Shown in pieces: positions 7,020 through 56,412 of a DNA stretch of 59,581 nucleotides. Below the pieces are notes generated by a model. That model worked only from the letters and a program-made list of their open reading frames with translations. It had not been told where the DNA came from and ran no database searches. Position 1 is the stretch's first letter; every line of letters begins with the position of its first letter. The DNA comes from a virus: IMG/VR virus record IMGVR_UViG_3300031578_000032, positions 1-59,581 of that record. One strand, 5' to 3'. Position numbers and translations under genes: made by a program.

Positions 7020-7821
7020 GAGTTATCCTATAATATTTTTTCATATCCATTCTTGGATATGCTTGATCACAAAAACAAATTTTAGATATACAAAATGTCC
7101 AGTCTTGAAGGTATTGCATCGGATCTGTATATATGTTAAAGATTTTATATTTTCTATCCATTTGTGCCCAACATCTCATAACATCACCATTTTCTCTAAT
7201 AATAAAACCTGGTTTACACATTTGATTTTTATAATTACCGTATATGTGTTCATAAATATTGTCCCAATCATATGTATTTTTCATTACATCATATGCTTCA
7301 GTTCCCAATATCTGATGGATGGGACATATCCAAAGTTGTCTCCTATTGAAATGTTTATAATATAAGTGTAATATTTGCTTGACATTATTTTCTTGAAGCA
7401 TGAAAAAGACCTCAGAATTTTTTAATGAATAAACCTTTTCAAACCACTTATCTATATCCGGAATCCAATCAGAATGAAACGAAGCATTAATTATAAAATT
7501 ATCGTACTTATTAAATTGTTCAAAATATTTCTTTGACCTTAATAAATTAGTGTGCATAAGCAAAGTAACGTTGTCAAATTCTTTATTTAATCTATCAGTA
7601 TATTCAATTAGTTTTGGATGTAACGTTGGTTCACCTCCATAGAATTGAAAGAAAAGATTCTCTTTTTTATGCAGATGTATAAACTCAATAACTTTATCAA
7701 AATTATGTTCGACTGTTTCTCTAACATCTTTTTCTTCATTCCAATAACAATACCAACACTTTATATTACATTTTTGAGTTAATACAAATGTTATTTCAAG
7801 AGTAGTATTATAATCAATCAT
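7006..7821 (-). CDS. Radical SAM protein (subfamily B, copy 5, shortest)
   Basis: This is the shortest of the group at 271 residues. It has CNIKCWYC (Cys18/22/25), FQFYGGEPTLHPKL, DIDKWFEKVYSLKNS and a C-terminal MCKPGFIIRENGDVMRCW / WTFCISKICFCDQAYPRMDMKKYY block. Its N-terminus starts almost directly at the first radical SAM strand, without the leader of about 10-20 residues present in its paralogues. It may be close to the minimal form of the family. The start overlaps the stop of the upstream gene as ATGA. Confidence 0.87.
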   Translation of the reverse strand: MIDYNTTLEITFVLTQKCNIKCWYCYWNEEKDVRETVEHNFDKVIEFIHLHKKENLFFQFYGGEPTLHPKLIEYTDRLNKEFDNVTLLMHTNLLRSKKYFEQFNKYDNFIINASFHSDWIPDIDKWFEKVYSLKNSEVFFMLQENNVKQILHLYYKHFNRRQLWICPIHQILGTEAYDVMKNTYDWDNIYEHIYGNYKNQMCKPGFIIRENGDVMRCWAQMDRKYKIFNIYTDPMQYLQDWTFCISKICFCDQAYPRMDMKKYYRITHEKK

Positions 7822-8651
7822 AGTATATCCATAATGGGGTCATCTGATTTAAAAAACCTATCTTTCAATCCTATTTTCTGTAGTTCATGATAACGATACC
7901 ATGAACCATCCTTTATTTTATATTGGTTATTGTATATTATGTTCTTGTTATAAAAATAAGCCTCCATTAATAATCTACATCTAGGTTCAAAATATAGCCC
8001 ATCATGAATATACATATAAGTATCCCATAGTTCAAAAAAGTTTTTTGGATGTTTAACTAAAACTGTTATTCTATTGGTTGGATCAATATTTTTATTACCA
8101 GAAACAATTATATTTTTATTAGTTAATGTTAATGCTCGAGTTAATTCTGTTGCACTTTTACCTGAACAATTAATATAACAATTACTTCTATCCTTTTTAA
8201 CTTCTTTGTAAAGGTCAAATGGAAACCTTAATTTATAATCAACATTTCCAACACCAAATGGCATTTCATTATAAACAGTATAGTTTGGTCTATCAATGTA
8301 GTCGTAAAATCTTTTTATGTAATTTTTATCATGATCGTAAATAATGTGATAGTGTGAGGCAAGTGTGTATGGAAGAACAGAAGTTGTACCATAGTCCATT
8401 ATAAGAATATTGTCAAAAGAGAGGTATATGAGTTTGTATTCTGTTTCTAAAACTATTATGTTATCTTTGTAATTAAAATCTATATTATATCTATCTCTAA
8501 TTATTTTAAATACATCTTCTAATGTAAGATGACGCTTTATAATAAGAATTAATTTTGTATCTTTATTTAATTTTTGTGTTTGCAAATAATATTCTATAAC
8601 ATCAATTAGTGCACCATTAATATGATAACATCTGAATATTATAGCATTCAT
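7818..8651 (-). CDS. Putative GT-B-like glycosyltransferase, first gene of the radical SAM operon
   Basis: The ATG at 8651 is preferred because AAAGG lies 8 bases upstream; a GTG at 8660 would place the start on top of that site. The 277-residue protein has no motif I recognise with certainty. The C-terminal stretch ITVLVKHPKNFFELWDTYMY, then FEPRCRLLMEAYFYNKNIIY resembles the donor-binding end of GT-B glycosyltransferases, where an E-x-R...EA pattern precedes a short strand. Its position ahead of the epimerase and radical SAM genes fits a sugar-transfer role, but this is inference. Confidence 0.45.
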   Translation of the reverse strand: MNAIIFRCYHINGALIDVIEYYLQTQKLNKDTKLILIIKRHLTLEDVFKIIRDRYNIDFNYKDNIIVLETEYKLIYLSFDNILIMDYGTTSVLPYTLASHYHIIYDHDKNYIKRFYDYIDRPNYTVYNEMPFGVGNVDYKLRFPFDLYKEVKKDRSNCYINCSGKSATELTRALTLTNKNIIVSGNKNIDPTNRITVLVKHPKNFFELWDTYMYIHDGLYFEPRCRLLMEAYFYNKNIIYNNQYKIKDGSWYRYHELQKIGLKDRFFKSDDPIMDIL

Positions 8652-8665
8652 ATATTTCACCTTTC

Positions 8666-9504: not shown

Positions 9505-9534
9505 TTTTCGTTTTCCTTTCTTTTTTATATTTTT

Positions 9535-9624
9535 TGATTTAAAAATTTTTGTGATTCTACACTACAAATTCCCATTCTTAAATTGATGTTTCGCTTCTTG
9601 ACCACACCCATATTCATACAACAT
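9535..9624 (-). pseudogene. Deletion remnant of an HNH homing endonuclease
   Basis: Read on the minus strand, this spacer begins MLYEYGCGQEAKHQFKNGN, matching the start of the intact endonuclease at 38759-39667 (CEYGCGREAKYQFKNGKW). It then jumps directly to DNA matching the last codons of that gene (SVESQKFLNQ), with about 33 of 35 bases alike. Everything between, including the HNH core, is gone. The octamer TTGTAGTG lies at the junction and occurs near both ends of the intact gene. The remnant sits where a free-standing homing endonuclease would have sat, between a fibre gene and its downstream neighbour. Confidence 0.85.
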
Positions 9625-9641
9625 TATTTTATAAATCTCCA

Positions 9642-13559: not shown

Positions 13560-13604
13560 CTATATATATTAATTAATGAAAAGGTATATTTATATTTTAT
13601 TATT
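13560..13604. repeat. Dispersed intergenic element, copy 1
   Basis: The sequence CTATATATATTAATTAATGA, followed by an AT-rich tail, recurs at 56368-56412 with the same order of bases over about 45 positions and in shorter form at 32633-32659. All three are intergenic. The element may be a promoter, an origin-associated AT-rich site or a protein-binding site; nothing in the sequence decides between them. Confidence 0.5.
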
Positions 13605-17705: not shown

Positions 17706-18464
17706 ATGCCAAAATTAATGCAAGATAATAATACGCAAGAAATGAAAATTGCTGGTCCAGGTAATTTTACATTTTCAGCAATCCGGATTGAAGATCTTGG
17801 AGCTACAGAATACACTCTGGTAACAATTGTTTGTGATGTTACTGGAAGCGTTAGAACCTTTGCAGATGAATTATTAAAGATGGTTAAAACTGTTGTCAAA
17901 GCATGTAAGAAAAATGCAAGAGCAGAAAATTTATTACTTAGATATGTTTTATTCAACAATGATATTATGGAAGTACATGGGTTTCTTCCAGTAACATCTA
18001 TTAATGAAGATGATTATGAACAACTTAGACCTGCTGGAACAACTGCATTATATGACGCAGTATTCAGTGGAATTGGTGCTACCCTTAAAATGGCAGAGAC
18101 TCTTTCAGCTCAAGACTTTGATGTAAATGGATGTGTTTATATTATCACGGATGGTGATGATAATGCATCTACTTCTTCTCCATCAATGATTAAAGATCAA
18201 AATAATAGAGCTTTAAACAAAGAAGAGATTGAATCTTTAAGGTCTGTTGTTATTGGTATTACTGATGAAAATGCTTTTGATAAAGCATATTTTGTTGGGA
18301 AACTTGAAAAACTTTGTATCGAAGCGGGTATAACCCAGTTTGTTAATGCTGGTGATGCAACGGCATCTACGTTAGCAAGACTGGGTCAACTTATTAGCCA
18401 GAGCATTAGCTCTGTCTCACAGACTTTAGGATCCGGGCAGGCAAGTCAGCCGCTTGTTTTCTAG
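17706..18464 (+). CDS. von Willebrand factor A domain protein (TerY-like), vWA1
   Basis: The 252-residue protein has all three parts of a metal-ion-dependent adhesion site: CDVTGSV (Asp44, Thr46, Ser48), AGTTALYDAV (Thr112/113) and ITDGDDNAS (Asp149). No signal peptide or membrane segment is present, so it acts in the cytosol. TerY proteins with this single-domain layout are encoded with a PP2C phosphatase and a protein kinase in the TerY-P triad; such a phosphatase and kinase follow at 20051 and 21264. Codon choice and the strong AAAGGAGG site suggest high expression. Two hairpins follow the stop. Confidence 0.88.
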   Translation: MPKLMQDNNTQEMKIAGPGNFTFSAIRIEDLGATEYTLVTIVCDVTGSVRTFADELLKMVKTVVKACKKNARAENLLLRYVLFNNDIMEVHGFLPVTSINEDDYEQLRPAGTTALYDAVFSGIGATLKMAETLSAQDFDVNGCVYIITDGDDNASTSSPSMIKDQNNRALNKEEIESLRSVVIGITDENAFDKAYFVGKLEKLCIEAGITQFVNAGDATASTLARLGQLISQSISSVSQTLGSGQASQPLVF

Positions 18465-18514
18465 AGGTTTCATGACTACCTCCTAGTTGGGGTGGCTGAC
18501 AAGGTCCACCCCAA
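18464..18514 (+). terminator. Two tandem hairpins after vWA1
   Basis: GAGGT/ACCTC (18464-18482) and a perfect 9-bp stem TTGGGGTGG/CCACCCCAA (18487-18514) follow the vWA1 stop. They are GC-rich against an AT-rich background but lack a T-run. They could be weak terminators or RNA-stabilising or processing sites. Confidence 0.55.
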
Positions 18515-18704
18515 CAAACAAAAGGAAAACAAAATAGAATATAAAATTATTTTTTGGGCACTCGCTATATTTATTGCTTTAAAAAGTATATCTGTAGGTA
18601 ATGAATTTAATTTATATTATTGGATTAAATATAAAAAGAAATACATTGATTGGTATTTTGGACGAGAAACTTTTAAACAGTTCTTAAGGAGAATTAAAAA
18701 ATGA
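18492..18704 (+). CDS. Small membrane protein with uncertain start
   Basis: The frame contains one hydrophobic segment (IIFWALAIFIALKSISV) followed by a basic tail (YIDWYFGRETFKQFLRRIKK), the layout of a single-span inner-membrane protein. The only canonical start is a GTG at 18492, but it lies inside a strong hairpin and lacks a ribosome binding site. AAAAGGA lies 7 bases before an in-frame ATA at 18534, which would give a protein of 56 residues beginning EYKII after the initiator. The stop overlaps the next gene by 4 bases. The coding nature is likely; the start is not settled. Confidence 0.55.
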   Translation: MADKVHPNKQKENKIEYKIIFWALAIFIALKSISVGNEFNLYYWIKYKKKYIDWYFGRETFKQFLRRIKK

Positions 18705-19810
18705 CAGAAAAGAAACATGTAGCACAAACTTTAATGAACGTTAATATACACCCCGTAACACTTGATATTATGGATCGAGGAATTGAACAACTATTCCCAG
18801 CAATTACAGAAGTTCAAGGATGGTGGGGATATGATCTCTTTAGTAGAAAACCAGGTCCAGCTTACTATGATGAAACTGGTAAACTTCAGTTAACCAACTT
18901 AGACCTGGTATGTTTTTTATGGGAATTATCCAAACGAGATTCTATCATTAATATTCCCGAATATAAAGCAAGACGATCTGGAAGGAGCAGAACAGATCAG
19001 ATACTTGTATCAAATAAGAATAGAAACGGAACAATTGTGGGTCTCCAATCCAACCAAAACTTCTTTAGTTTTTCAGTTAAGATTAAAGATATGAATGTTA
19101 TTGGCGAAAATTCGGTTGGAGATTTTAGAACATTTATGTTAACTGATCTTGATGGTTCATGGTATGAAGGGTGGAGATCAATCCAATTTATGCCAACTTT
19201 AAAAGAAAATAAATGGCTCTATGAAAATAAACTTTTTACAGGAAACACTATATATTTCAAAAACTTTATTGCACCAACCAGATGGACCAGTTTTTTCGGA
19301 CATCATTATTTTATTACTAAACTTATGATTGAGAGACTTGAAGAAGAAGCTTCTTTTTGCCGGGTAGCATATAAATTGATGATACAAAAAGGAATCAAAT
19401 TTCCAGAGGGAAGTGGCCCCCAGTCATATGAATACGATGAAAAAGCAAAGGGAGTAAAAAAAATATTTAATGCATTTGAAGTAAATCTTCAACACTCTCC
19501 TTTTACTGGAGAATATAAAGTACCAAAAGCAAATCAGAAAAATATGATGGAACTCTATAATAGACAAAAAAGATATGGTAAAATCCTTAGTAATCTTCGT
19601 TTTATGATAAGAGCAACTGAATTCTCTCATTATAGTAATCCTGAAAATTTTCCTGCATGGTTGAAAAATACCAAATGGGAACCTAATTATGTCGAAAAGG
19701 GAAAAAGAATAAAATGGCAACGGTTAGTTTTATTCCAACCTGGAGTAGGAGAAACTGCCTGGTCAATCCTCAAGCGAACATATGAAAAATCGACTGAGGT
19801 TGCCGCATGA
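18701..19810 (+). CDS. Hypothetical protein (369 aa) within the vWA/kinase region
   Basis: The product (MTEKKHVAQTLMNVNIHPVT) is soluble, rich in aromatic and basic residues, with no catalytic motif I recognise. Notable segments are EVQGWWGYDLFSRKPGPAYY and FFGHHYFITKLMIERLEEEA. It has a strong AAGGAG site and is followed by a hairpin. It lies between vWA1 and the PP2C gene, so it may be part of the same system, but no known TerY-P component matches it by eye. Confidence 0.75.
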   Translation: MTEKKHVAQTLMNVNIHPVTLDIMDRGIEQLFPAITEVQGWWGYDLFSRKPGPAYYDETGKLQLTNLDLVCFLWELSKRDSIINIPEYKARRSGRSRTDQILVSNKNRNGTIVGLQSNQNFFSFSVKIKDMNVIGENSVGDFRTFMLTDLDGSWYEGWRSIQFMPTLKENKWLYENKLFTGNTIYFKNFIAPTRWTSFFGHHYFITKLMIERLEEEASFCRVAYKLMIQKGIKFPEGSGPQSYEYDEKAKGVKKIFNAFEVNLQHSPFTGEYKVPKANQKNMMELYNRQKRYGKILSNLRFMIRATEFSHYSNPENFPAWLKNTKWEPNYVEKGKRIKWQRLVLFQPGVGETAWSILKRTYEKSTEVAA

Positions 19811-19814
19811 TATT

Positions 19815-19844
19815 ATGAGGAGTAGATTGTATTCTACCCCTCAT
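19815..19844 (+). terminator. Hairpin between cistrons
   Basis: ATGAGGAGTAGA pairs with TCTACCCCTCAT around TTGTAT, with one mismatch in a 12-bp stem. No T-run follows. It sits between the 369-residue protein gene and a small membrane protein gene with its own ribosome binding site. Confidence 0.5.
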
Positions 19845-19868
19845 AAAATAAAAGAAAGGAGATATCAT

Positions 19869-20039
19869 ATGATACCTCAATTTTTAAGTAAAAAATGGAA
19901 ACCTTATGAAGAACCAGCTGAACATATAATAAGAGATAGAGAGTCAAAAATCAAAGATGTAAAATTTAACGGGTCTTCTAAAGCTCTTATCTTTTTTATA
20001 CTCGGTGTTATGTTTACTTCATTATTATTTTATTTTTAA
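19869..20039 (+). CDS. Small tail-anchored membrane protein (56 aa)
   Basis: The ATG at 19869 follows GAAAGGAGATATC, a strong site; the upstream extension to 19782 overlaps another gene and the hairpin. The product starts MIPQFLSKKWKPYEEPAEHI and ends in one hydrophobic segment (ALIFFILGVMFTSLLFYF) right at the C-terminus, a tail-anchor arrangement with the N-terminus in the cytosol. It precedes the PP2C gene by 11 bases. Function unknown. Confidence 0.72.
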   Translation: MIPQFLSKKWKPYEEPAEHIIRDRESKIKDVKFNGSSKALIFFILGVMFTSLLFYF

Positions 20040-20050
20040 AGGAGTTAGAT

Positions 20051-20887
20051 ATGAAAATATACATTGATCATTTATTAAAAATAGGAAAGACTCATAAAGT
20101 ATGTGAGGATTATATTATTTCAGGTCATACCCCAGTCCCTTATATTATTTTATCGGATGGATGTTCTAGTTCTAAAGACACTGATGTTGGGGCTAGAATT
20201 CTATGTTATAGAGCTAAACAATATTTACAACGGAATGGATCTCTTGATTCTGTAAATGAATCTGAAATGGGCGATTATATTATTTGGTCTTCTAAATTAG
20301 CTATAGACCTTCTTGGATTAGATGTAACTGCTTTAGATGCGACTTTAACGATTGCCTATTACGTCAATGGAATATTAAAAATTATTATGTATGGCGATGG
20401 AAATATAGTTTATATTGATAACAATAAAGATAGTATATCAATTGAAATTAATTATACTAAAAATACTCCATATTATTTATCATATGAATTAGATCAAAAA
20501 AGAAAACAAATATATCAGGATAACAACATTAAAAAAACAATTGGGGGCTATTGTTATTATTCAGATATAAATAAAGTAAAAAGTGGAACAACCGGGATAA
20601 TAAAATGTGACAAACCATATATTTCTACTTATATAATTGAACCTAATACAGATCAAACTATTTTAATTTTCTCTGATGGGATTTCAACCTTTTTTAATAA
20701 AGAACAACAAGAATTCTTGCCTATAAAGGATCTTATACAAGATTTTTCATCTTTCAAAACTTTAAAAGGGGAGTTCTTACAAAGAAGGTTATTAAGTAAA
20801 AATGGTGCTATAACTAAGTTAGAACAACAAGGTTATGATCACTTTGATGATTTATCAGTTGGAGCTTTTGTTATTCGATGCAACTAA
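20051..20887 (+). CDS. PP2C-family serine/threonine phosphatase
   Basis: The 278-residue protein has the PP2C metal-binding acids in order: CEDYIISG (Glu19/Asp20), LSDGCSS (Asp36-Gly37), MYGDGNIVY (Asp116-Gly117), FSDGIS (Asp209-Gly210) and HFDDLSVGAF (Asp266/Asp267). These bind two metal ions for phosphate hydrolysis. The order and length match the compact bacterial form encoded with TerY-type vWA proteins and a kinase. It acts in the cytosol and probably reverses the action of the kinase at 21264 or controls the vWA protein. Its last codons overlap the next small gene. Confidence 0.87.
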   Translation: MKIYIDHLLKIGKTHKVCEDYIISGHTPVPYIILSDGCSSSKDTDVGARILCYRAKQYLQRNGSLDSVNESEMGDYIIWSSKLAIDLLGLDVTALDATLTIAYYVNGILKIIMYGDGNIVYIDNNKDSISIEINYTKNTPYYLSYELDQKRKQIYQDNNIKKTIGGYCYYSDINKVKSGTTGIIKCDKPYISTYIIEPNTDQTILIFSDGISTFFNKEQQEFLPIKDLIQDFSSFKTLKGEFLQRRLLSKNGAITKLEQQGYDHFDDLSVGAFVIRCN

Positions 20888-21072
20888 CCAGAAGGAAAGA
20901 CTTAAGAATAGCAATTCTCTTACATATTGCTAACACTATTAGTGGTGAATTAATGGATTGGAATGGTTTAGAAGGGTGGTTGAATTTTAAATTTATTAAC
21001 GAAAAAGAAAGAGATATAGCAGCTGATATGTTTATAGCAGAAATACATCGTTTGCACAAAAGAATTGATTAA
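20878..21072 (+). CDS. Small hypothetical protein between phosphatase and kinase genes
   Basis: A 64-residue helical product (MQLTRRKDLRIAILLHIANT) starts at an ATG overlapping the PP2C stop by 10 bases, so it may be translated by coupling; GGAG lies about 13 bases upstream. No motif recognised. It contains DWNGLEGWLNFKF and ends in basic residues. Gene content between the phosphatase and kinase genes suggests a role in the same system, but this is inference. Confidence 0.6.
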   Translation: MQLTRRKDLRIAILLHIANTISGELMDWNGLEGWLNFKFINEKERDIAADMFIAEIHRLHKRID

Positions 21073-21082
21073 GGAGAAAAAA

Positions 21083-21289
21083 ATGCCATACTATAAATGT
21101 AGCGGATGCCACCATGAGTGGGAAGATTCTCAAGAACGAAAATGTGATTGGTGTGATACAAAAAACCCAATAGTTCTTGAAGAAAAAACTCCGTTAGAGA
21201 AATTTGTAAAAATACTTTTAAAAGATCCAGTCGGATTCTTTAAAGGAATAGGGGATAATAAAGATGTATCACATACGAGGAAAAAATAA
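21083..21289 (+). CDS. Small zinc-ribbon protein upstream of the kinase gene
   Basis: The ATG at 21083 follows AAGGAGAAAAAA. The 68-residue protein starts MPYYKCSGCHHEWEDSQERK and continues with CDWCDTKNP, so two CxxC pairs form a zinc ribbon within the first 30 residues; the rest is helical and basic. Its 3' end overlaps the kinase start by 26 bases. Zinc ribbons are often fused to or encoded beside kinases of the TerY-P type, so it may be a split-off domain (inference). Confidence 0.72.
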   Translation: MPYYKCSGCHHEWEDSQERKCDWCDTKNPIVLEEKTPLEKFVKILLKDPVGFFKGIGDNKDVSHTRKK

Positions 21290-22952
21290 AAAAGTTAAAT
21301 TTACACAGAACAACTTTATAGCAAAAGGTGGTGAAGGAAGTGTTTATAGAATAGGTAATGTTGTATATAAAATTTATGAAGACTCCTCTAAAATGATTCC
21401 CGAAGCCAAAATTAAAGAACTTAATAATATCAGCGATAGTAACATCATCAAACCTATTGATATTATTTTAGACCCATCTAATAAAGTTGTTGGTTTTACA
21501 ATGAGATATGTAAAAGGTGAACCTTTATGTAAACTATTCACAACTGCTTTTAGAGACAGAAATAATATATCTGATGATATGACTCTTGAACTGGTTGAAA
21601 ACATTAAAGATTCTACCTATAATATTCATTCAAATAAGTGTTTGATTGTGGATGGAAATGAATTAAATTATATGGTTGATAAATCATTTGTTGTTCCATT
21701 TTTCATTGATGTTAATAGTTGGCAAACTCCAAGTTTTCCAGCTACAGCAATTATGTCATCAGTTAGAGACTGGAATGTAAATACATTTTCTGAAATAACA
21801 GATTGGTTCTCATTTGCTATAGTTACATTCCAGTTGTTTGTAGGAATTCATCCATATAAAGGAAAACATGATAAGTATAAAAAGAATGATTTTCAAAAAA
21901 GAGTTGTAGACTGTGTTTCTGTATTTAATAAGAATGTTGGGGTTCCACCTGCAGCAAGGAGTTTTGATTTAATTCCTAACCATTATAAAGATTGGTATTA
22001 TAATCTATTTGAAAAAGGTAAGAGAAATGAACCACCAACTAAACCTGGTGTACGAAGTCCAATTACTACCAGACATATTATTATTAACAGTACAGATAAT
22101 TTTGTAATCAAAGAAATTCATGAGTTTAATTCTGAAATTATTTATTATGATGTAGTATATGGAGTTGAAGTCATTAAAACAAAAAATACCTTATACATTA
22201 ATAATAAAAAATATACAGTAGCACCAAACGTTGAAGTTTTATTTACAACTCAAAATTTAAATCCAATATTTGTTAAAATTGAATCTGGTCAATTGAAGTA
22301 TTTTTCTCCGGACTCTATCAAAATAAATTACTCTAAATTAAACTGTTCAGATAAAATGATTTATAAAAATTCTTTGTTTATAAAAAATGAGGGAAAATTA
22401 ATTGAAATATCTCTCAAGGAAATGAATAAACAAATATTTCCAACAGTAAAACATACATGGGGAATACTTCCGTATGCTAGTGAAATGTTTAGTGGGTGTG
22501 TTTCTCAAAGTGTATTTGGAAGACAGTTCTTTGTTATTATAGAACCAAATTCATCAGGAAATTCTGAATCATATGTTATTAAAGTTGATGATTTAGATGG
22601 TTATCGAGTTATTGATGCTAAATATGAATCCAATGTTTTAATTGCCACAACTTATAAAGATAGTCAATATGATAGGTTTATTATTAAACTTGATCTAAAA
22701 AATAATAAGTACACTTATAGAAAAGAAGAAGGTATTGATTTTATACCTGCTAATTTTATAGTGCTTGACAATGGAATTGTTATAAATATAAATGATCAAG
22801 ATTCCGTTCAGATATTTTCTAATATATACGGAAAAGATGCAGTTAAGGAAATTAAAGATCCTGCAATAGATTCATCAATGAAATTGGTCAAAGATGGAAC
22901 ACAAGCAAAATTTTTCAAAGGTAATAAATTATTTACAATAAAAACAAAATGA
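21264..22952 (+). CDS. Serine/threonine protein kinase with C-terminal beta-rich domain
   Basis: The 562-residue protein has a kinase domain at about 14-270: glycine loop KGGEGSVYRI, Lys36 (VVYKIYE), Glu47 in helix C, a catalytic-loop equivalent VDGNELNYMVD (Asp130, Asn135), FFIDVNSWQ (Asp149) in place of DFG, and DWFSFAIVTFQLFVGIHPY. The HRD and DFG variants with DxxNExN and DxxSxQ are typical of the TerY-P/YegI kinase group. Residues about 275-562 are beta-strand-rich with repeating hydrophobic patterns, possibly a beta-propeller sensor. It should phosphorylate proteins in the cytosol; substrates unknown. With vWA1 and PP2C it completes a triad. Confidence 0.87.
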   Translation: MYHIRGKNKKVKFTQNNFIAKGGEGSVYRIGNVVYKIYEDSSKMIPEAKIKELNNISDSNIIKPIDIILDPSNKVVGFTMRYVKGEPLCKLFTTAFRDRNNISDDMTLELVENIKDSTYNIHSNKCLIVDGNELNYMVDKSFVVPFFIDVNSWQTPSFPATAIMSSVRDWNVNTFSEITDWFSFAIVTFQLFVGIHPYKGKHDKYKKNDFQKRVVDCVSVFNKNVGVPPAARSFDLIPNHYKDWYYNLFEKGKRNEPPTKPGVRSPITTRHIIINSTDNFVIKEIHEFNSEIIYYDVVYGVEVIKTKNTLYINNKKYTVAPNVEVLFTTQNLNPIFVKIESGQLKYFSPDSIKINYSKLNCSDKMIYKNSLFIKNEGKLIEISLKEMNKQIFPTVKHTWGILPYASEMFSGCVSQSVFGRQFFVIIEPNSSGNSESYVIKVDDLDGYRVIDAKYESNVLIATTYKDSQYDRFIIKLDLKNNKYTYRKEEGIDFIPANFIVLDNGIVININDQDSVQIFSNIYGKDAVKEIKDPAIDSSMKLVKDGTQAKFFKGNKLFTIKTK

Positions 22953-26455: not shown

Positions 26456-26689
26456 ATGGAAAGATATATATATTTTATAGATATTTTAGCATGGATATTT
26501 GCAATTTTATCTACATTATTTGTTGTTGGTAGGTTAATTGCTTATTCACTATATGATGACTTAGATAAATTACGAGATAAATTAAATGGAGTAGAAGCAA
26601 GGTTTCCAATAATCAATGGAAGTATTGTAGCAATTATATGTTGGGTTTGGATAATTGCCTCCTATTTAGTTGAAGGTAAATTATTATGA
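26456..26689 (+). CDS. Small membrane protein with two spans
   Basis: The 77-residue product has hydrophobic segments at about 6-28 (YFIDILAWIFAILSTLFVVG) and 53-70 (INGSIVAIICWVWIIASYLV), with a charged loop between. AAGGAGGAATATTA precedes the ATG. Its stop overlaps the start of the phosphoesterase gene by 4 bases. Function unknown. Confidence 0.7.
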   Translation: MERYIYFIDILAWIFAILSTLFVVGRLIAYSLYDDLDKLRDKLNGVEARFPIINGSIVAIICWVWIIASYLVEGKLL

Positions 26690-27345
26690 AAACAAACATT
26701 ATAGTAACCGGAGATGTTCATGGAGATTTTGGTGCCTTAAATGAGATAATTTCTAAAAAGAAAAAACATGGTTTGGAATTAGTTATCTGTTGTGGAGATT
26801 TTGGATTTTGGCCACAGGGACCTGGCCAAGTCATAAAAGGAATTAAAAATCAAGGAGTTAAAATTCTTTTCTGTGATGGAAACCATGAAAATCATCATGC
26901 ATTAAGAGATAGAAAATCTGATGAAATTGTTCCAAATGTTTTCTATATGCCCAGAGGTTCCACTTATAAATTAGATGATGGAAGAAATGTTTTGTTTATG
27001 GGTGGAGCAGATTCAATAGATAAACAATGGAGAACTCCTGGTTGGGATTGGTTTCCAGAAGAACATATCACACAAAAAGATATGGAAAATTTACCAGACA
27101 AAAAAGTTGATATATTTATTACTCATACTTGTCCAACCGAATTAGTTCCTGATATGATAAAATATGATTATAGAAAAAAAGATGATCCATCAAATCATTA
27201 TTTATCAGAATTATGGAAAAAATACAAACCAGACTTATGGTATTTTGGGCACTGGCACACTGATACAACTGGTGTATTAATGGGAACAAGGTGGTACGCT
27301 TTAAATATGTCAAGACACACTAACTTTTGGAAATGGTTAGACTAA
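26686..27345 (+). CDS. Calcineurin-like metallophosphoesterase
   Basis: The 219-residue protein has the full signature of the family: GDVHGDF near the N-terminus, CCGDFGFW, DGNHENHHAL, FITHTCP and YFGHWHTD, binding two metal ions. It is likely a cytosolic phosphatase or nucleotide/nucleic acid phosphodiesterase. The neighbouring ligases suggest end-processing of DNA or RNA, but phosphoprotein or cyclic nucleotide substrates are possible. The start is coupled to the preceding membrane protein gene by ATGA overlap. Confidence 0.9.
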   Translation: MKTNIIVTGDVHGDFGALNEIISKKKKHGLELVICCGDFGFWPQGPGQVIKGIKNQGVKILFCDGNHENHHALRDRKSDEIVPNVFYMPRGSTYKLDDGRNVLFMGGADSIDKQWRTPGWDWFPEEHITQKDMENLPDKKVDIFITHTCPTELVPDMIKYDYRKKDDPSNHYLSELWKKYKPDLWYFGHWHTDTTGVLMGTRWYALNMSRHTNFWKWLD

Positions 27346-27396
27346 AAAGGAGATAACAATAAATTAAAGAAATTATATAATTATTAGAGGTGCAAA

Positions 27397-27996
27397 ATGA
27401 AAAAGTTATTTCAAATAATGTTACTGATAAGTTTATTATCAACAAATGTTTATGCTTTGAATTTAAAGGAAGGAGTAAAGTTTGCAGGAGGAGCATTGAC
27501 TTCTTATATGATACATGAAGGAGGTCACTATTTTGCAGCTGAAGTAACCAATAATGATATGGAATGGGAATTTATGAAGGATGGACAACTTATCTCTTTT
27601 TACTCAAATCCAGAATCAGATCATGATGGACTTTACATTAATTCTGCTGGATTGGTTTCGCAAGCTATAATGTCAGAAATCATTATTGATAGTAAATTGA
27701 ATAATGATGACTTTTTTGTAAGAGGGATGATGTTCTGGAATGTCTTAAATCCTATTATGTATGCAGTTGATTATTGGTGGTTAAAAAGAACTAATGAAAT
27801 AAAAGATAATACATATTTTGGCGATTTAGCAGGTATCGAATATTATTCTGATAAAAAAACAGCTAACATTTTCGCCGGAACTATGGTATTATTAGCACTG
27901 TGGCATGGACATAGATTTTGTAGTGAAGAGACTACAAACTTTAATCTCATGCCAATAAAAGATGGAGTTGGATTAAATTTTACATATAGATTTTAA
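27397..27996 (+). CDS. Exported HExxH-type putative metalloprotease
   Basis: The 199-residue protein opens with a signal peptide (MKKLFQIMLLISLLSTNVYA) and has MIHEGGHYFAAEV, an HExxH zinc motif, at about residue 40. Further segments FFVRGMMFWNVLNPIMYAV and FAGTMVLLALWHGHRF may lie in or on the membrane. The C-terminus LNFTYRF ends in phenylalanine with alternating aromatic residues, like an outer-membrane insertion signal. The protease call rests on the single motif. The 3' 44 bases are repeated at 29657-29700. A superfluous AAAAGGAG lies about 50 bases before the start. Confidence 0.6.
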   Translation: MKKLFQIMLLISLLSTNVYALNLKEGVKFAGGALTSYMIHEGGHYFAAEVTNNDMEWEFMKDGQLISFYSNPESDHDGLYINSAGLVSQAIMSEIIIDSKLNNDDFFVRGMMFWNVLNPIMYAVDYWWLKRTNEIKDNTYFGDLAGIEYYSDKKTANIFAGTMVLLALWHGHRFCSEETTNFNLMPIKDGVGLNFTYRF

Positions 27997-28005
27997 AAAT
28001 GAAAG

Positions 28006-28047
28006 AAAAGAAGACCTAATTTTAATTAACTGAACTGAAAGTAGAAA
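28006..28047 (+). pseudogene. 5' remnant of an RNA-ligase-like gene
   Basis: Thirty-two of 42 bases match, without gaps, the ribosome-binding region and first codons of the RNA ligase gene (29932-29973). The in-frame reading is LTELKVERVKK followed by a stop, versus MAELKVEVCK in the intact gene. It lies directly after the metalloprotease stop. Together with 29657-29700 it marks a duplication around the vWA2 cassette. Confidence 0.65.
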
Positions 28048-28074
28048 GAGTTAAAAAATAATATCATATCAAAT

Positions 28075-28096
28075 GGAGGGATAATTATGTCCCTCC
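28075..28096 (+). terminator. Hairpin upstream of vWA2
   Basis: GGAGGGA pairs perfectly with TCCCTCC around an 8-base loop. It lies 30 bases before the vWA2 start and after the ligase remnant. No T-run follows; it may be the left border of the inserted cassette or an mRNA-processing site. Confidence 0.5.
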
Positions 28097-28126
28097 CAAC
28101 AACATAAAAATTTTGAAGGAGGAAAC

Positions 28127-29173
28127 ATGTTACAAACACACGTTGCGTTTTGTATTGATGAAAGTGGGTCGGTTACAGGAATTATCAAACCCCTCGTTGA
28201 AGCGTATAATCAAACAGTTATAGATATTCGGGGGTCAGTATTAGACGAAGGTCAAGAAGCGTCAATGACCGCCCTTGCATTTGGAGATAGAGTTCTCCGA
28301 CATAGGATTCTTTATTCTGGTCAACAAGTTCAGACCGTTAAACCTTTAAGTTATAAAGATTTCAATCCAAGTGGGATGACTCCATTATTTGATTCTGTAT
28401 ATCGTGCCATCAAAAAATTAGAAGAGCTGGATGATGGAAAAGAAGATACATCATTTGTTGTATCAGTTATTACAGATGGACAGGAAAATGATTCTCGTGA
28501 TCCAGGTGTTCCAGCAACGATCAGATTGATTGAGCAAAAGACAGTGACTAATCGGTGGACATTTACATTTCTGGTGCCCAACGGTAGTGAAGATGTATTT
28601 TCCAGACAATTTAATATCCCCAGAGGAAATGTTCAAGGTTGGGATACACAAACTGCTGCCGGAACCAAGGAGGCATTTATTGTAAGTTCCAATTCATATC
28701 GAGGATTCTTCAAACAAAAATCTGCTGTCGGTATTGGTAAAAAGATGTCCAGTAAATCATTTTATTCCGATACCTCTGATCTAACCGTAAGGGCAGCAAG
28801 ATCAGAACTATCCGAGATTACCAACCAGGTTGTATTTATAGTGCCTCGTATGGACTGTAAAATTCGTGATGCCATCATTAATCATGGAAGAGAATGGATC
28901 AAGGGTGCAGCATTCTATGCCCTAATTAAAACTGAGAAGAAAGTCCAGCCTTATAAAATGGTTGCTCTTCGAGTTAAAACTTCAGGTAAAGTTTACTCTG
29001 GTCAAGCAGCTCGTGATATGCTCGGTATTGGAAATGCAACAGGAACAGTTCGATTGGTTCCTGGAGATCATGGTAAGTTTGATGTGTTTATTCAATCAAC
29101 AAGCATCAATCGAAAGATTCCAGCTGGTACCGAAGTACTTTATTGGCCAAAAGTCGGAAGTCAAAAGAAATGA
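28127..29173 (+). CDS. von Willebrand factor A domain protein, vWA2
   Basis: The 348-residue protein has a complete MIDAS: CIDESGSV (Asp11, Ser13, Ser15), GMTPLFDSV (Thr85) and VITDGQEND (Asp117). After about residue 200 a separate domain follows (SSKSFYSDTSDLTVRAARSE to the end), with MDCKIRDAIINHGREWIKGA. It has no signal peptide. It is distinct in sequence from vWA1. GAAGGAGGAAAC precedes the ATG and codon use is less AT-biased, indicating strong expression. It heads a cassette of three genes flanked by partial duplications of the neighbouring metalloprotease and ligase genes. Confidence 0.87.
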   Translation: MLQTHVAFCIDESGSVTGIIKPLVEAYNQTVIDIRGSVLDEGQEASMTALAFGDRVLRHRILYSGQQVQTVKPLSYKDFNPSGMTPLFDSVYRAIKKLEELDDGKEDTSFVVSVITDGQENDSRDPGVPATIRLIEQKTVTNRWTFTFLVPNGSEDVFSRQFNIPRGNVQGWDTQTAAGTKEAFIVSSNSYRGFFKQKSAVGIGKKMSSKSFYSDTSDLTVRAARSELSEITNQVVFIVPRMDCKIRDAIINHGREWIKGAAFYALIKTEKKVQPYKMVALRVKTSGKVYSGQAARDMLGIGNATGTVRLVPGDHGKFDVFIQSTSINRKIPAGTEVLYWPKVGSQKK

Positions 29174-29394
29174 AAGTTGCCCAGTGTAATGGTTGTGGGT
29201 ATTGTTGTATGAGCTCTCCATGTGATGTGTCACGTAGATTATATAAAAGCGCTGATATATGCCCACAACTACAATGGCATGAAGATAAAGCTAAATACTT
29301 TTGTGGTTTAATGTTTCTACCAGGAAATATAGGATTTGAATATAGAAAAGAGTTACATGCCGGAGCTGGATGCTGTAGTAATTTGAATAGTTGA
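29170..29394 (+). CDS. Cysteine-cluster protein (YkgJ-like)
   Basis: The start at 29170 overlaps the vWA2 stop (ATGA). The 74-residue product begins MKVAQCNGCGYCCMSSPCDV and later has CPQLQWH, YFCGLMF and GAGCCSN. The CxxCxxCC plus distal cysteines resemble the YkgJ-type Fe-S/zinc-binding domain. Coupling to vWA2 suggests the pair acts together, but the role is unknown. Confidence 0.65.
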   Translation: MKVAQCNGCGYCCMSSPCDVSRRLYKSADICPQLQWHEDKAKYFCGLMFLPGNIGFEYRKELHAGAGCCSNLNS

Positions 29395-29651
29395 GAAAGG
29401 ACATCAAAGAACGAAGTAGAGGAGCTTTATCATACCAACACCAAGCTATTCCTATTGTATTTCAAGTTTTCTTAAGAGCTTATGGTAGTGAACCTTTTCT
29501 ATCTAGAGATTTAACAGAAATAATATTATGTCGATTTCAGGATGGGTTAAAAGCAATTGACTATTCAGATGACGAAATTAAGCATATTATGGGAAACGTT
29601 AGTCATTATATAAATAGTAACAAATCGTCAATGTTTGATGGTTTTATATAA
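29391..29651 (+). CDS. Hypothetical protein with TTG or uncertain start
   Basis: The frame encodes about 86 residues (LSYQHQAIPIVFQVFLRAYG, then FLSRDLTEIILCRFQDGLKA) with natural helical composition. The only reasonable start is a TTG at 29391, overlapping the previous stop as TTGA; an AAAGGA site downstream of it points to no canonical codon. It is the last gene of the vWA2 cassette. Function unknown. Confidence 0.5.
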   Translation: MRKDIKERSRGALSYQHQAIPIVFQVFLRAYGSEPFLSRDLTEIILCRFQDGLKAIDYSDDEIKHIMGNVSHYINSNKSSMFDGFI

Positions 29652-29656
29652 AGAAG

Positions 29657-29700
29657 ATACAAGGTGGAGTTGGATTAACCTTTACATATAGGTTTTAAAA
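29657..29700 (+). pseudogene. 3' remnant of the metalloprotease gene
   Basis: Thirty-nine of 44 bases match the end of the gene at 27397-27996 (27955-27998). The reading is GGVGLTFTYRF then stop, versus DGVGLNFTYRF in the intact gene. Only this tail is present. It forms the right-hand partner of the ligase remnant at 28006-28047. Confidence 0.75.
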
Positions 29701-29710
29701 GGAGGATAAA

Positions 29711-29928
29711 ATGCCAGCATTCTATAAAACTGTTTTGTTTCCTATCAAAGTGTCAGAAGGCGACTATTGTTGGGGAAAAGGGTGTTGCTATCCTCAGTTT
29801 GATAATGAGAGTGACATGCTACTTGTCAATACAATATAGATTACAAAGGAAAGGGGTTTGGACTAAAATATGACAAAATTGGTCATGTCCCCAAACCTGA
29901 CTTCTGTAAAAACCTATTAGAAAAATAA
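29711..29928 (+). pseudogene. Small protein gene interrupted by a frameshift
   Basis: An ATG at 29711 with GGAGGATAAA upstream opens a frame encoding MPAFYKTVLFPIKVSEGDYC, then WGKGCCYPQFDNESDMLLV, ending at TAG 29837-29839. In the -1 frame the reading continues IDYKGKGFGLKYDKIGHVPK, then PDFCKNLLEK, to TAA at 29926-29928. Adding one base near 29826 would join both into a protein of about 72 residues. It is either a recent single-base loss or an error in the sequence; a programmed shift is less likely as no slippery site is visible. Confidence 0.6.
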
Positions 29929-29951
29929 ATAAAAAGGAGAATTAATTGTAA

Positions 29952-31070
29952 TTGGCTGAATTAAAAGTTGAAGTTTGTAAAATTGATGATATTAGAGACC
30001 ATCCTAATGCAGACAAATTAGAACTTGCATACATTGGTGGAAAAAATGGATGGCAATCATGTGTAAGAATTGGGGAGTTTAAAGTGGGTCAAAAGGTGGT
30101 TTATATTCCAGTTGATTCTCTGCTCCCCATGGATGTCGAAAAAATCTTATTTGGGGAAGATTCTAAAATAACCCTAACAAAATCACGAGTTCGTTCTATT
30201 AAAATCAGAGGAGCTATCTCCCAAGGAATGATCGTATCATTAGAAGGTTTGGGTTTAAATCCTCATTTAAAAATAGGAACTGATATAGCAGAAAAATTAG
30301 GAATAGAAAAATATACACCCCCTGAAAAAGGACAACCTTCTCAAATGCAGGCAGTAAAACACCGTCATAAAAATCCCAACTTTAAAAAATATACTGAAAT
30401 TAATCATTTTAAATATTATTCAAATGCTCTAGATGATTTAGAAATAGTAGTAACTGAAAAAATACACGGAACAAATTTTAGGGCTGGATATGTTAAGTTT
30501 AATGCTTATAATCTATGGACTAAATTCCTTAGTTTTATTGGTAAGCTATTTAATAAATGGCAATATGAATTTGCATACGGAAGTCATAATATTCAACTAA
30601 CAAATAAAGGTAAGAAAAATAAAACCTTTTATGGAAAAAATGTCTATTATAAAATAGCTGAACAATATAACTTAAAAAATATACTTAAAGATAATGAAGT
30701 ACTTTATGCTGAAATATATGGGCATGGAATACAAAAAGGTTATACATATGGTTGTAAACAAGATGAACATAAAATGGCAGTTATAGATATAATGATTAAT
30801 GGCAAATATCTTAACCATGCAGATGCAGAATCATTTTGTATGGAAAGAGGATTGCCATATATGAAAGTTTTATATATTGGTAAATATAATTATGAAATTG
30901 TAAATAAATTAGCAAATTCTGAACATTCCTTTGTAGACCCAAAAACAAAACCCATAGAAGGAGTAGTTATAAAACCTGTTATAGAAACTAAAGGATATAT
31001 GGGAAGAATGATATTCAAATGGATTGGTGATAAATATTGGTTAAACAAAGGAAATAGTGATTGGAAATAA
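29952..31070 (+). CDS. RNA ligase (DraRnl/Rnl5-like)
   Basis: The 372-residue protein has an N-terminal OB-fold-like domain (KIDDIRDHPNADKLELAYIG onward) and then a nucleotidyltransferase core: motif I EKIHGTN (Lys170), motif III YAEIYGHG, motif IV EGVVIKP and motif V FKWIGDKYW. The N-terminal domain before the core is the layout of Deinococcus Rnl. It would seal RNA breaks, for example tRNAs cut by host anticodon nucleases. The start is TTG at 29952, with AAAAGGAG 12 bases upstream; no ATG is available. A 5' fragment of a related gene lies at 28006. Confidence 0.86.
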   Translation: MAELKVEVCKIDDIRDHPNADKLELAYIGGKNGWQSCVRIGEFKVGQKVVYIPVDSLLPMDVEKILFGEDSKITLTKSRVRSIKIRGAISQGMIVSLEGLGLNPHLKIGTDIAEKLGIEKYTPPEKGQPSQMQAVKHRHKNPNFKKYTEINHFKYYSNALDDLEIVVTEKIHGTNFRAGYVKFNAYNLWTKFLSFIGKLFNKWQYEFAYGSHNIQLTNKGKKNKTFYGKNVYYKIAEQYNLKNILKDNEVLYAEIYGHGIQKGYTYGCKQDEHKMAVIDIMINGKYLNHADAESFCMERGLPYMKVLYIGKYNYEIVNKLANSEHSFVDPKTKPIEGVVIKPVIETKGYMGRMIFKWIGDKYWLNKGNSDWK

Positions 31071-31082
31071 AAGGAGTATGAT

Positions 31083-31376
31083 ATGACAATTATAGAGCTT
31101 ATTGAAACAGACAAGGGCTTATATGAATGTGATGATTGTAAAAGCACATTCACCGCAGAAGAAATTAAATTAGTTGATCCTGCTGATAATTTTAAAATAC
31201 TAACTCCAGGATTTCATTTTATGTGTGTAGAGAAAGATGGTACTATATGTGGTAAAGCAGACCCTAAAAAAGAGGATGGAGATAAGTTATTATCTTGTCC
31301 TAAATGTGGTTATATTCATTTTACTGGTTTTAATAAAAAAAGTAAGGAGACCATATGTTTAAAGTTTATCCAATAA
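31083..31376 (+). CDS. Zinc-binding hypothetical protein
   Basis: The 97-residue product has YECDDCKSTF near the N-terminus and LSCPKCGYIHF near the C-terminus, with extra Cys in between (MCVEKDG, ICGKAD). The two knuckles could form one ribbon. AAAAGGAGTATGAT precedes the ATG. Its last 22 bases overlap the next gene. Function unknown. Confidence 0.7.
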   Translation: MTIIELIETDKGLYECDDCKSTFTAEEIKLVDPADNFKILTPGFHFMCVEKDGTICGKADPKKEDGDKLLSCPKCGYIHFTGFNKKSKETICLKFIQ

Positions 31377-32612: not shown

Positions 32613-32632
32613 TTCTATTATATAATCATTTA

Positions 32633-32659
32633 CTATATATATTAATAACTAATATAGGG
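32633..32659 (+). repeat. Dispersed intergenic element, partial copy
   Basis: CTATATATATTAATAACTAA matches the first 14 bases of the elements at 13560 and 56368 and then diverges. It follows the terminator and precedes the structured region 32660-32800, so a promoter role for that region is possible. Confidence 0.4.
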
Positions 32660-32800
32660 TATTGGCGATTGCTCTTTTATGATGGAAAGCGTTTTAAGGA
32701 ACGCGCCGATTACTTACTCCACTCCACGTTGTCGCCATTAGCAATATAGAAAACCATGCGGGGTATCCGGTGGATTGCTCTTACGGGATATGGAGTTTGT
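32660..32800 (+). ncRNA. Candidate structured RNA or leader (unnamed)
   Basis: This 140-base part of a 219-base gap is more GC-rich than its surroundings. It can form a 7-bp helix TGGCGAT/GTCGCCA (32663-32669 with 32731-32737), an internal hairpin GCGTT-TTAAGG-AACGC (32689-32704), and a later hairpin CCAT.CGG/CCG.GTGG (32754-32774). GATTGCTCTT occurs twice (32667-32676, 32773-32782). The first domain is 76 bases long like a tRNA but has no T-arm. It precedes a small membrane-protein gene; it may be a small RNA or a regulatory leader. Confidence 0.4.
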
Positions 32801-38475: not shown

Positions 38476-38762
38476 AGTTCACTCCCCAAACTTTCTAGTA
38501 TTTTTTCTCTTAATTTTACATTTGAATTATTTATTAATTCAAATTTTGTATCTAAATTTTTTTGAAGTTTTTCACCTTGTTTAACTAAATAATTTTTCTT
38601 TTCAATTTTTTTGTTTAAATTTTCAATAACATATTCCACAGATTCTAGTTTATCTTTTAATGGAAAATTAGGATCTGTTTTGCAAATAGCAAATATTCTT
38701 TCAAGAACTTGTGGCAACATTTCTTTTGATGTTTGCCTTCTTTCTATTTTTTCAATTCTCAT
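38472..38762 (-). CDS. Coiled-coil protein in scaffold region
   Basis: A 96-residue helical protein with a coiled coil at about 38-92 (LESVEYVIENLNKKIEKKNY). It starts overlapping the homing endonuclease gene (ATGA) and overlaps the next gene by 4 bases. In the ancestral order it would directly follow the protease gene, and the endonuclease inserted between them. Likely prohead core or assembly protein. Confidence 0.6.
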   Translation of the reverse strand: MRIEKIERRQTSKEMLPQVLERIFAICKTDPNFPLKDKLESVEYVIENLNKKIEKKNYLVKQGEKLQKNLDTKFELINNSNVKLREKILESLGSEL

Positions 38763-39667
38763 ATATTCTCCAATGACTGATTTAAAAATTTTTGTGATTC
38801 CACACTACAAGTTATTTTTGCTAAATTTCCAGTTGAACATTCACTACCAGCTGGATGACCATATTTGTAGTGGCATCTCTCGCAAACAGATATTGCATAA
38901 TCTGGATCTAGTGCAAAAAATGGTTCAAGCTTTTTAGGTCTTAAATGATGAACTATGGTCGCATGTTCTCCACAGTAGTGGCACAGTTCGTTATCTCTTT
39001 TTAAAACAAGTTGATTTAAAGTATCAAGTTCTGTTGAAGTGTAAGGTAATTTATTATCTTTAATTTCATATGGATCATTTTGTAGCCCATATAAAAAGCA
39101 TGTATCCTTACAGTGTTGAGAACAGTAAAAGTAACTTAAATCATGACCATAATTTTCTAAAGCGCTTATTCTAGCTTCTAATTGTCTACTAGTTGGAGTG
39201 AACCATCCATCTTTTTCTTTTGAGTTTTTACATTCATGGTTTTTACAATGGACCTGTATTTCTCTCTCTTCTAATGGTTTATATGGGTTGTATCTCATTT
39301 CTTCTATTTTAGAAAAGAAAAGATATTTTTCATTTATTATTTCTATACTTCTTCTACAGGAGTATGCTTCTATACCCTTATTCCAAGGCTCTCTTCCTTT
39401 TAATTTTTTTCTCAAAATTTCTTTAACTTTTTCACTTCTTGGACAATTTTTGTTATGTGGAATTCTACCAAGAGCTTTTAATCTTATTTTTTCTTTTGCT
39501 TCAGAAGTTTGTTTTCTTTTATACATAGGATTGTTTTTTCCAATTGTTTGTTGTTTAAGTCTTTCTCTGTTAGCGGGACAACTTTGCCATTTTTCACTAC
39601 AACACCATTTCCCATTCTTAAACTGATATTTTGCTTCTCTACCACAACCATATTCGCAAATTTTCAA
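38759..39667 (-). CDS. HNH homing endonuclease, free-standing
   Basis: TTG at 39667 is the preferred start (AAAGGTGG 8 bases upstream); a GTG at 39679 is possible. The product begins KICEYGCGREAKYQFKNGKW with zinc-finger-like cysteines, then a basic region of NUMOD3-like GKNNPMYKRK, KIRLKALGR and LRKKLKGREPWNKG, and ends with an HNH domain: LCHYCGEHATIVHHLRPKKL, then CERCHYKYGH. It lies between prohead protease and coiled-coil genes, the usual setting of a gene-targeting homing endonuclease. An internally deleted copy lies at 9535-9624. Confidence 0.87.
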   Translation of the reverse strand: MKICEYGCGREAKYQFKNGKWCCSEKWQSCPANRERLKQQTIGKNNPMYKRKQTSEAKEKIRLKALGRIPHNKNCPRSEKVKEILRKKLKGREPWNKGIEAYSCRRSIEIINEKYLFFSKIEEMRYNPYKPLEEREIQVHCKNHECKNSKEKDGWFTPTSRQLEARISALENYGHDLSYFYCSQHCKDTCFLYGLQNDPYEIKDNKLPYTSTELDTLNQLVLKRDNELCHYCGEHATIVHHLRPKKLEPFFALDPDYAISVCERCHYKYGHPAGSECSTGNLAKITCSVESQKFLNQSLENI

Positions 39668-39669
39668 AT

Positions 39670-40335
39670 TTAGACCCACCTTTCAAAAAAGTTTGCTACT
39701 TTAGTTTCAATCAATTTATCAAAATAATTTGGCATAAAACATTGTCCATCTACACATATTAGTCCATTGTCAGATTCAAATAACATAGCTTGCTCAAATT
39801 TCATTTCATTAAAATCAACAACAGCAGCTCTATGTGATGGCATTGACACAGCATCAAATGCTATAATAGTTAATGGAGATCTAACAACACTATGATCTTT
39901 TAATCTTTCTAATTCTGCTAATCCTCTCATTGAAAATCCAACGCCAGTCTTATCTCGTAATAATGAAAACAAAGTATTTCCTTTTTGGGTACTTAATGTT
40001 TCCATTTCTCCAATTAAAACATTTTGTTTAAATTCATATGCTCTTATAATGTGAGATGCATTATTTAATGAAACAGTTGTTTGTCTTATACCATCAATTT
40101 GATCATTCCCTGTTGGCAAAGGATGGTCAAGCTCTGAATAAAACGCTCTCCTGTTCATTCTCATATCACAATGTCCCATACCCTCACCTAACACTGAACT
40201 TGGATATAACCTACCATTTTGATTTATTTCATCAGTAGTTTGTATTGGGCATCTGAATATTGCTCGGGTTGGCGTTTGTTTAACAATCTCAGCTTCTGAA
40301 TAAATACCCTGCTCTATAATAAATTTTGAACTCAT
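39670..40335 (-). CDS. Prohead core protease (T4 gp21-like)
   Basis: The 221-residue protein shows the gp21/U9 serine protease pattern: QNGRLYPSSVL, SELDHP (catalytic His), GVGFSMRGLAEL (catalytic Ser) and FDAVSMPSHRAAVVDF. It cleaves scaffold and capsid proteins during head maturation. It lies between the acidic protein after the portal and the capsid gene, as in T4. The stop of this gene is directly next to the endonuclease start. Confidence 0.9.
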   Translation of the reverse strand: MSSKFIIEQGIYSEAEIVKQTPTRAIFRCPIQTTDEINQNGRLYPSSVLGEGMGHCDMRMNRRAFYSELDHPLPTGNDQIDGIRQTTVSLNNASHIIRAYEFKQNVLIGEMETLSTQKGNTLFSLLRDKTGVGFSMRGLAELERLKDHSVVRSPLTIIAFDAVSMPSHRAAVVDFNEMKFEQAMLFESDNGLICVDGQCFMPNYFDKLIETKVANFFERWV

Positions 40336-56367: not shown

Positions 56368-56412
56368 CTATATATATTAATAAATGAATAGTCATATTTA
56401 ATATTTTATAAT
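56368..56412. repeat. Dispersed intergenic element, copy 2
   Basis: CTATATATATTAATAAATGA and the following AT-rich tail match 13560-13604 closely. Here it lies between the divergent polymerase and DnaJ-type protein genes. It may be a promoter for the plus-strand gene or an AT-rich origin-type site. Confidence 0.5.

Follow-up and report, generated by a model that had tools for sequence, protein, structure and literature searches.

A window of 59,581 bases, which is the whole of the virus record IMGVR_UViG_3300031578_000032 in IMG/VR (positions 1 to 59,581), contains the junction between a gene labelled as a metalloprotease (MP) and an RNA ligase gene twice. The two junction copies are direct, a vWA2 gene and a Cys-cluster gene (Cys) stand between them, and each copy is broken on the opposite side: copy 1 consists of the intact MP and a 5′ stub of the ligase, and copy 2 of a 3′ stub of MP and the intact ligase. 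On the plus strand, the order is a calcineurin-like phosphoesterase gene (MPE), MP, ligase stub, hairpin, vWA2, Cys, MP stub, a small gene (sm), and ligase. The double junction had been proposed in an original prediction made from the sequence alone, and it was confirmed by the two matches described below and their controls; it also supports the proposal that duplication or unequal recombination took place. Our preferred account, which we consider moderately probable, is that unequal recombination over short homology duplicated a block of MP, sm, and ligase, and that the copies then lost different parts.

The end of MP (27397–27996, plus strand) is repeated directly over 59 nucleotides (27940–27998 and 29642–29700, both on the plus strand) at 80% identity. 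In the core of the repeat (27955–27998 and 29657–29700), 39 of 44 positions were identical, and the runner-up place for this 44-mer on the plus strand of the window scored 27. The repeat was also recovered when 21 intergenic segments were compared with the window by BLASTN (E 1.6e-10). When 83 gene ends were screened by best ungapped match, the MP end was at the top with 39, followed by a low-complexity acidic gene (34) and the HNH endonuclease scar described below (32). Chance resemblance is excluded for this repeat. The altered codons in the stub core leave the tail residues V, L, F, Y, and F intact. For comparison, 25 relatives of the window were collected by capsid-protein scans (63–85% capsid identity; the distant capsid matches L020–L023 and L060 were left out). 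One of them, G024, has an MP of 46% identity that retains the tail (PAKAGGFIITYRKRF, ending in TYRKRF), which shows that the repeat is really the end of an MP gene; the neighbouring genes in G024 differ from those in the window.

The ligase stub with its upstream region (27990–28046) matches the region around the intact ligase start (29916–29972, both on the plus strand) without gaps at 43 of 57 positions, with a score of 29 over 57 columns at +1/−1, and is thus longer than originally described. Its core (28006–28047 against 29932–29973) has 32 identities in 42 positions, while the runners-up scored 25 on the plus strand and 26 on the minus strand. The match holds no exact 7-base run and was therefore not listed in the BLASTN intergenic screen. 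The start codon and the frame have been lost in the stub; over the first seven ligase codons, the start codon is altered, E3, L4, K5, V6, and E7 are kept, and two changes are silent. Beyond these codons the stub diverges from the intact ligase, and no similarity was found between 28048–28126 and the ligase end, MP, or the region upstream of the isochorismatase gene. Against the ligase start, the spacer 27999–28126 scored 24, and none of the remaining 82 of the 83 gene starts gave it more than 18. In the reverse comparison, the ligase-start stretch reached 29 at the stub, and no tile elsewhere exceeded 20 (3,698 tiles over both strands). A cruder control, in which the best ungapped match anywhere was taken for each of the 83 gene starts, was also led by the ligase start, with a smaller margin (32 against 29). 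Chance resemblance is very unlikely for the ligase stub.

It is consequently very improbable that the double junction is a chance resemblance, and the same grade is given to its being an assembly chimera of two strain variants. The latter might be considered since the window is an IMG/VR virus record, but the longest exact string common to both junctions is 14 bases. The words used in assembly are usually longer than this.

The first gene between the junction copies, vWA2 (28127–29173, plus strand), matched phrog_26613, a family labelled as function unknown (PHROG comparison, E 1.7e-55), and scored under the cut-off of the Pfam VWA model (E 0.031). It is followed by Cys (29170–29651, plus strand), which the original prediction had taken as a Cys-cluster gene and another open reading frame (ORF); these are a single gene, interrupted by a frameshift at 29391–29394. 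Cys was profiled by genome search in 10 of the 25 relatives and read from a fetched stretch in G017. It is a single intact ORF in G001, G008, G009, and G010, with 161–177 codons in G001, G008, and G010. A comparison of the window with the ORFs of at least 60 codons from 19 stretches of the relatives (E limit 1e-4, with sm beneath its reach) showed no such site other than the Cys frameshift. The end of the gene reads ..FDGFI* in the window and ..FMG* in G001, G008, and G010, and the change coincides with the beginning of the MP tail, as expected of a deletion joint. No family in Pfam, PHROGs, or NCBIfam matched Cys above cut-off. The gene and its relatives share the conserved Cys-rich pattern CxxCGxCC .. 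C .. CPQL .. AGxGC.

Between the MP stub and the intact ligase lies a further gene that the original prediction had not mentioned, sm (29711–29928, plus strand; approximately 71 codons), which is frameshifted near 29838 and stands in copy 2 only. Its homologue in G003 has 71 codons and is located between the w18701 and PP2C genes. Joined across the frameshift, sm scored 74 against this homologue, with a shuffle maximum of 50 in 1,000. The first half alone was clear (59 against 43) and the second half alone was marginal (38, reached by 2 of 1,000 shuffles). Two genes of the block, Cys and sm, are thus frameshifted.

Among the relatives, full-length vWA2 was found in two, G001 (70%) and G020 (approximately 30%), so it is variably present. 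RNA ligase was found in three, all distant (G017, G020, and G022), and MP in five, with a good match in G024 and weak ones in G009, G011, G013, and G014. The presence scans rely on exact short peptide patterns, and absences are accordingly soft. MP and ligase shared a record in none of the 25 relatives, which does not bear out their junction as the ancestral one. No relative lacking vWA2 was found to carry both stubs, which would have refuted the original prediction, but the same relatives also lacked the MP–ligase pair and so speak for neither side. When junction DNA was searched in the 25 relatives, the best match (G001:52119–52171, E 1e-6) lay antisense inside a response-regulator-like gene and was rejected as an A+T-rich chance match, and the remaining matches were weaker. 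A nucleotide search of 26600–31100 against phage records gave no match.

The gene order around the isochorismatase/vWA1 module was read in 11 of the relatives (G001, G003, G006, G007, G009, G010, G015, G017, G019, G020, and G026), and the module was absent from the stretches read in G006, G020, and G026. MPE (26686–27345 in the window, plus strand; Pfam PF00149, E 2.2e-15, above cut-off) was present in six of the 25 relatives and adjoined the module in four of the six. The order in G001 is MPE, RNase H, Cys, vWA2, isochorismatase, vWA1, w18701, PP2C, and kinase; in G003, MPE, RNase H, isochorismatase, vWA1, w18701, sm, PP2C, and kinase; and in G010, MPE, HNH, Cys, RNase H, isochorismatase, and vWA1. 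Shorter orders were read in G017 (distant RNA ligase, Cys, isochorismatase, vWA1) and G007 (MPE, isochorismatase, vWA1). In the window, the module consists of RNase H, isochorismatase, vWA1, w18701, PP2C, and kinase, and MPE, Cys, vWA2, and sm are found 4–7 kb past the kinase, interleaved with MP and ligase. Since MPE, Cys, and, in G001, vWA2 stand beside the module without MP or ligase, the genes assigned to a cassette have a home in this group. Counter to a fixed gene arrangement, the Cys and MPE genes of G009 are far from the module. Judged from these gene orders, MP and ligase look like the newcomers, which would reverse the polarity of the original prediction, the opposite not being proven. 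The window genes vWA1, PP2C-like phosphatase, and kinase-like gene stand in a row (17706–22952) whose order is conserved in relatives and which, we presume, recalls the TerY-P triad.

These orders also bear on the original explanation, in which vWA2 and Cys form a mobile accessory cassette whose insertion into an ancestral MP–ligase junction duplicated that junction. The wide distribution of vWA2 in phages (at least 488 relatives confirmed among the first 599 candidate stretches) and its patchiness in this group (2 of 25) speak for mobility. However, G001 has MPE, Cys, and vWA2 together and G010 has MPE and Cys, in neither case with MP or ligase, and the pair that should have received the cassette is seen in no relative. 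The genes in 28047–29657 include no recognisable integrase, transposase, or endonuclease in Pfam and PHROG comparisons, apart from one sub-threshold transposase match of vWA2 (E 0.057), and the repeats belong to the flanking genes. Outside the window, vWA2 and Cys are linked only in G001, in reversed order, and two of 79 vWA2 loci have a weak distant Cys match. We regard insertion of a cassette as improbable. None of the 79 loci had MP and one (L103) had a ligase, and a general linkage of vWA2 and ligase was rejected. In Caulobacter phage Cr30, the vWA2 relative is located between the helicase-loader and single-stranded DNA-binding protein genes, with small genes between. Foreign composition was rejected as an argument for import of vWA2, since its G+C content (39.4%) is matched by that of the resident isochorismatase gene (39.1%).

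In the duplication account that we prefer, a partial tandem duplication of the block holding MP, sm, and ligase would have occurred through unequal recombination over short similar sequences. What remained would be MP with just the first ligase codons in copy 1 and the ligase with just the final MP codons in copy 2, so that vWA2 and Cys would be what stands between the leftover pieces and no insertion of vWA2 would be required. A possible starting order that agrees with G001, where Cys precedes vWA2, is Cys, MP, sm, ligase, and vWA2; copy 1 would then have lost Cys, sm, and the greater part of the ligase, and copy 2 vWA2 and the greater part of MP. The stop regions of MP and sm resemble each other at the start of the junction alignment, and a short-repeat deletion could therefore have taken sm from copy 1. 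The findings agree with this course in that the junction copies are direct and in tandem, with the rest of each gone, and the remnants of the two copies are complementary. Each stub also lies on the side of its copy that is turned towards the other one, which loss after duplication predicts. Further points in its favour are the frameshifts in Cys and sm, the altered Cys end, and the proximity of MPE, Cys, and vWA2 to one another in relatives that lack MP and ligase. We infer the course of events, the gene order at the start, and the origin of both copies within one genome.

A model for the deletion step may be proposed from within the window. The intergenic scar 9505–9641 (137 bases) matches both ends of the HNH endonuclease gene at 38759–39679 with 83–84% identity (BLASTN of intergenic segments against the window, E 9.7e-13 and 2.3e-10). 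The 8-mer CACTACAA occurs in the HNH gene only at 38803 and 39595 and once in the scar, at 9560. The scar fits a deletion between two 8-base CACTACAA repeats in another copy of the gene, with the middle lost, and its joint thus has homology within 2–10 base pairs (bp) and one copy left. According to work on T4 (PMC9391042), laboratory amplifications are bounded by 6–10 bp microhomology and are accompanied by compensating deletions, and amplifications and deletions over 2–10 bp repeats appear within a few rounds of selection.

Several results weigh against the duplication account. Neither an intact second copy nor the starting order was found among the 25 relatives, in none of which MP and ligase share a record, and the relatives' records are all classed as possible fragments. 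The outer edges (27330–27400 and 31060–31090) showed no further stubs and no remnant of a second Cys or vWA2, and the repeats are short. In the cores given above, the divergence between the junction copies is 11% and 24%, for which a duplication within one genome needs time, whereas exchange with a related phage would give it immediately. This divergence is more directly explained by unequal recombination between two related phages in one cell, which would leave the same structure, one phage with MPE, MP, and ligase without sm, and the other with vWA2, Cys, MP, sm, and ligase. A single mismatched crossover would have joined the ligase start of the first to vWA2 of the second, and the redundant MP would have been deleted to its tail. 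The presence of sm in copy 2 only also follows more directly from such an exchange than from duplication, and the conserved V, L, F, Y, and F in the MP stub are as expected of a once functional allele, although these few codons weigh little. Non-homologous exchange is moreover a usual proposal for T4-related phages (PMC2993671). Against this, a second parent with both MP and ligase is needed, and neither parental order was seen in the relatives. We consider the two-phage exchange a serious but less probable explanation.

Within the duplication account, a larger event may tentatively be suggested, although we rate it as rather unlikely: the neighbourhood from phosphoesterase to kinase would once have been present twice, and the loci at 14.9–23 kb and 26.7–30 kb would be complementary halves. 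MPE, Cys, vWA2, and sm each occur in or beside the module in some relatives, and none of the four does so in every relative. The second block of the window contains all of them in a compatible order (MPE, vWA2 with Cys, sm), except that vWA2 and Cys stand the other way round in G001. Their separators in relatives (isochorismatase, vWA1, and w18701) stayed in the first locus of the window. A simple move of a single piece cannot explain that four genes moved while the separators stayed, but duplication with loss can. The placement of sm by the module is from one relative, G003, and no further remnants for the larger duplication were found in the intergenic segments. If it is true, a reordering on the scale of a module has been caught before its scars vanished.

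The functional names of the two junction genes are of different strength. MP has an N-terminal hydrophobic stretch, an HEGGH motif, and the tail GVGLNFTYRF, which we take to resemble the C-terminal signal of outer-membrane proteins. No Pfam peptidase family matched it above cut-off, and the structure model was poor (predicted local distance difference test score 53), too poor for a fold search. At the HExxH position, the homologue in G024 has HESGH and three weaker aligned relatives have HVGGH, HIAGH, and HTAGH. Neither the tail nor the E of HExxH is present in the weaker relatives. The metalloprotease label is weakly supported. Searches with MP alone in viral contigs and phages, and with an MP alignment in genome contigs, gave no relative, and the alignment searched in viral contigs gave G024 again and nothing else. 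MP, vWA2, and Cys had no match among anti-phage defence models. The ligase (29952–31070, plus strand) matched Pfam PF09414 (E 1.2e-18) and phrog_968, RNA ligase (E 1.5e-53), and was above the cut-offs of the Pfam RNA_ligase and PHA02142 OB-fold models. Its score with TIGR02306 (RNA ligase, DRB0094-like) was 149.1 bits, below the curated cut-off of 151.15, and the gene is therefore named RNA ligase only. In G022 (locus L076, 8670–10931), the RNA ligase ORF has 753 codons, and its middle, after a KIHG motif, is intein-like as judged by eye.

Two other features of the window were observed. An A+T-rich intergenic box (CTATATATATTAAT..) occurs at 13560–13603, 56368–56412, and 32618–32663, with 87% identity between the first two, and is perhaps a promoter or origin element. 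At 464–8660, approximately eight minus-strand genes have CxxxCxxC-type starts, are radical-SAM-like by eye, and show partial similarity among themselves (repeats D5, D6, D8, and D13).

The junction scar is a real and small event of a known type, as duplication and deletion over short repeats are known in T4, and to a specialist it will for that reason be neat rather than surprising. Its value is that of a rarely preserved intermediate stage, in a large tailed phage, at which genes are being reordered and both halves of the junction can still be read, and the HNH scar shows the deletion mechanism at single-base resolution. The points that will last are the reversal of polarity and the HNH scar, which can be read exactly. 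The case also calls for caution, since flanking stubs are no proof of an insertion between them; the genes on either side may themselves have arrived later.

Tandem duplication with random loss is known from organelle genomes, where complementary parts of the copies are lost and gene ends are left. The window resembles it in that complementary losses from two copies reorder genes, and differs in that it belongs to a tailed phage and its starting order is reconstructed. Gene shuffling by promoter-early-stem-loop elements has been named for T4-like phages (PMC4503421), and a 7-bp hairpin (28075–28096, z −2.2) likewise lies between the ligase stub and vWA2. Unlike in that system, there is one hairpin only, with none found at the other end of the block, and promoter-like sites were no commoner than in shuffled sequences; the hairpin, being a single copy, was rejected as a shuffling signal. 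Compared with the T4 amplifications of PMC9391042, where the copies are fresh and under selection, the window carries an old and decayed footprint, and the joints of the MP–ligase block are not resolved to exact repeats. The likeness lies in the tandem copies and in compensating deletions at 2–10 bp repeats that leave one repeat per joint, a form which the HNH scar has.

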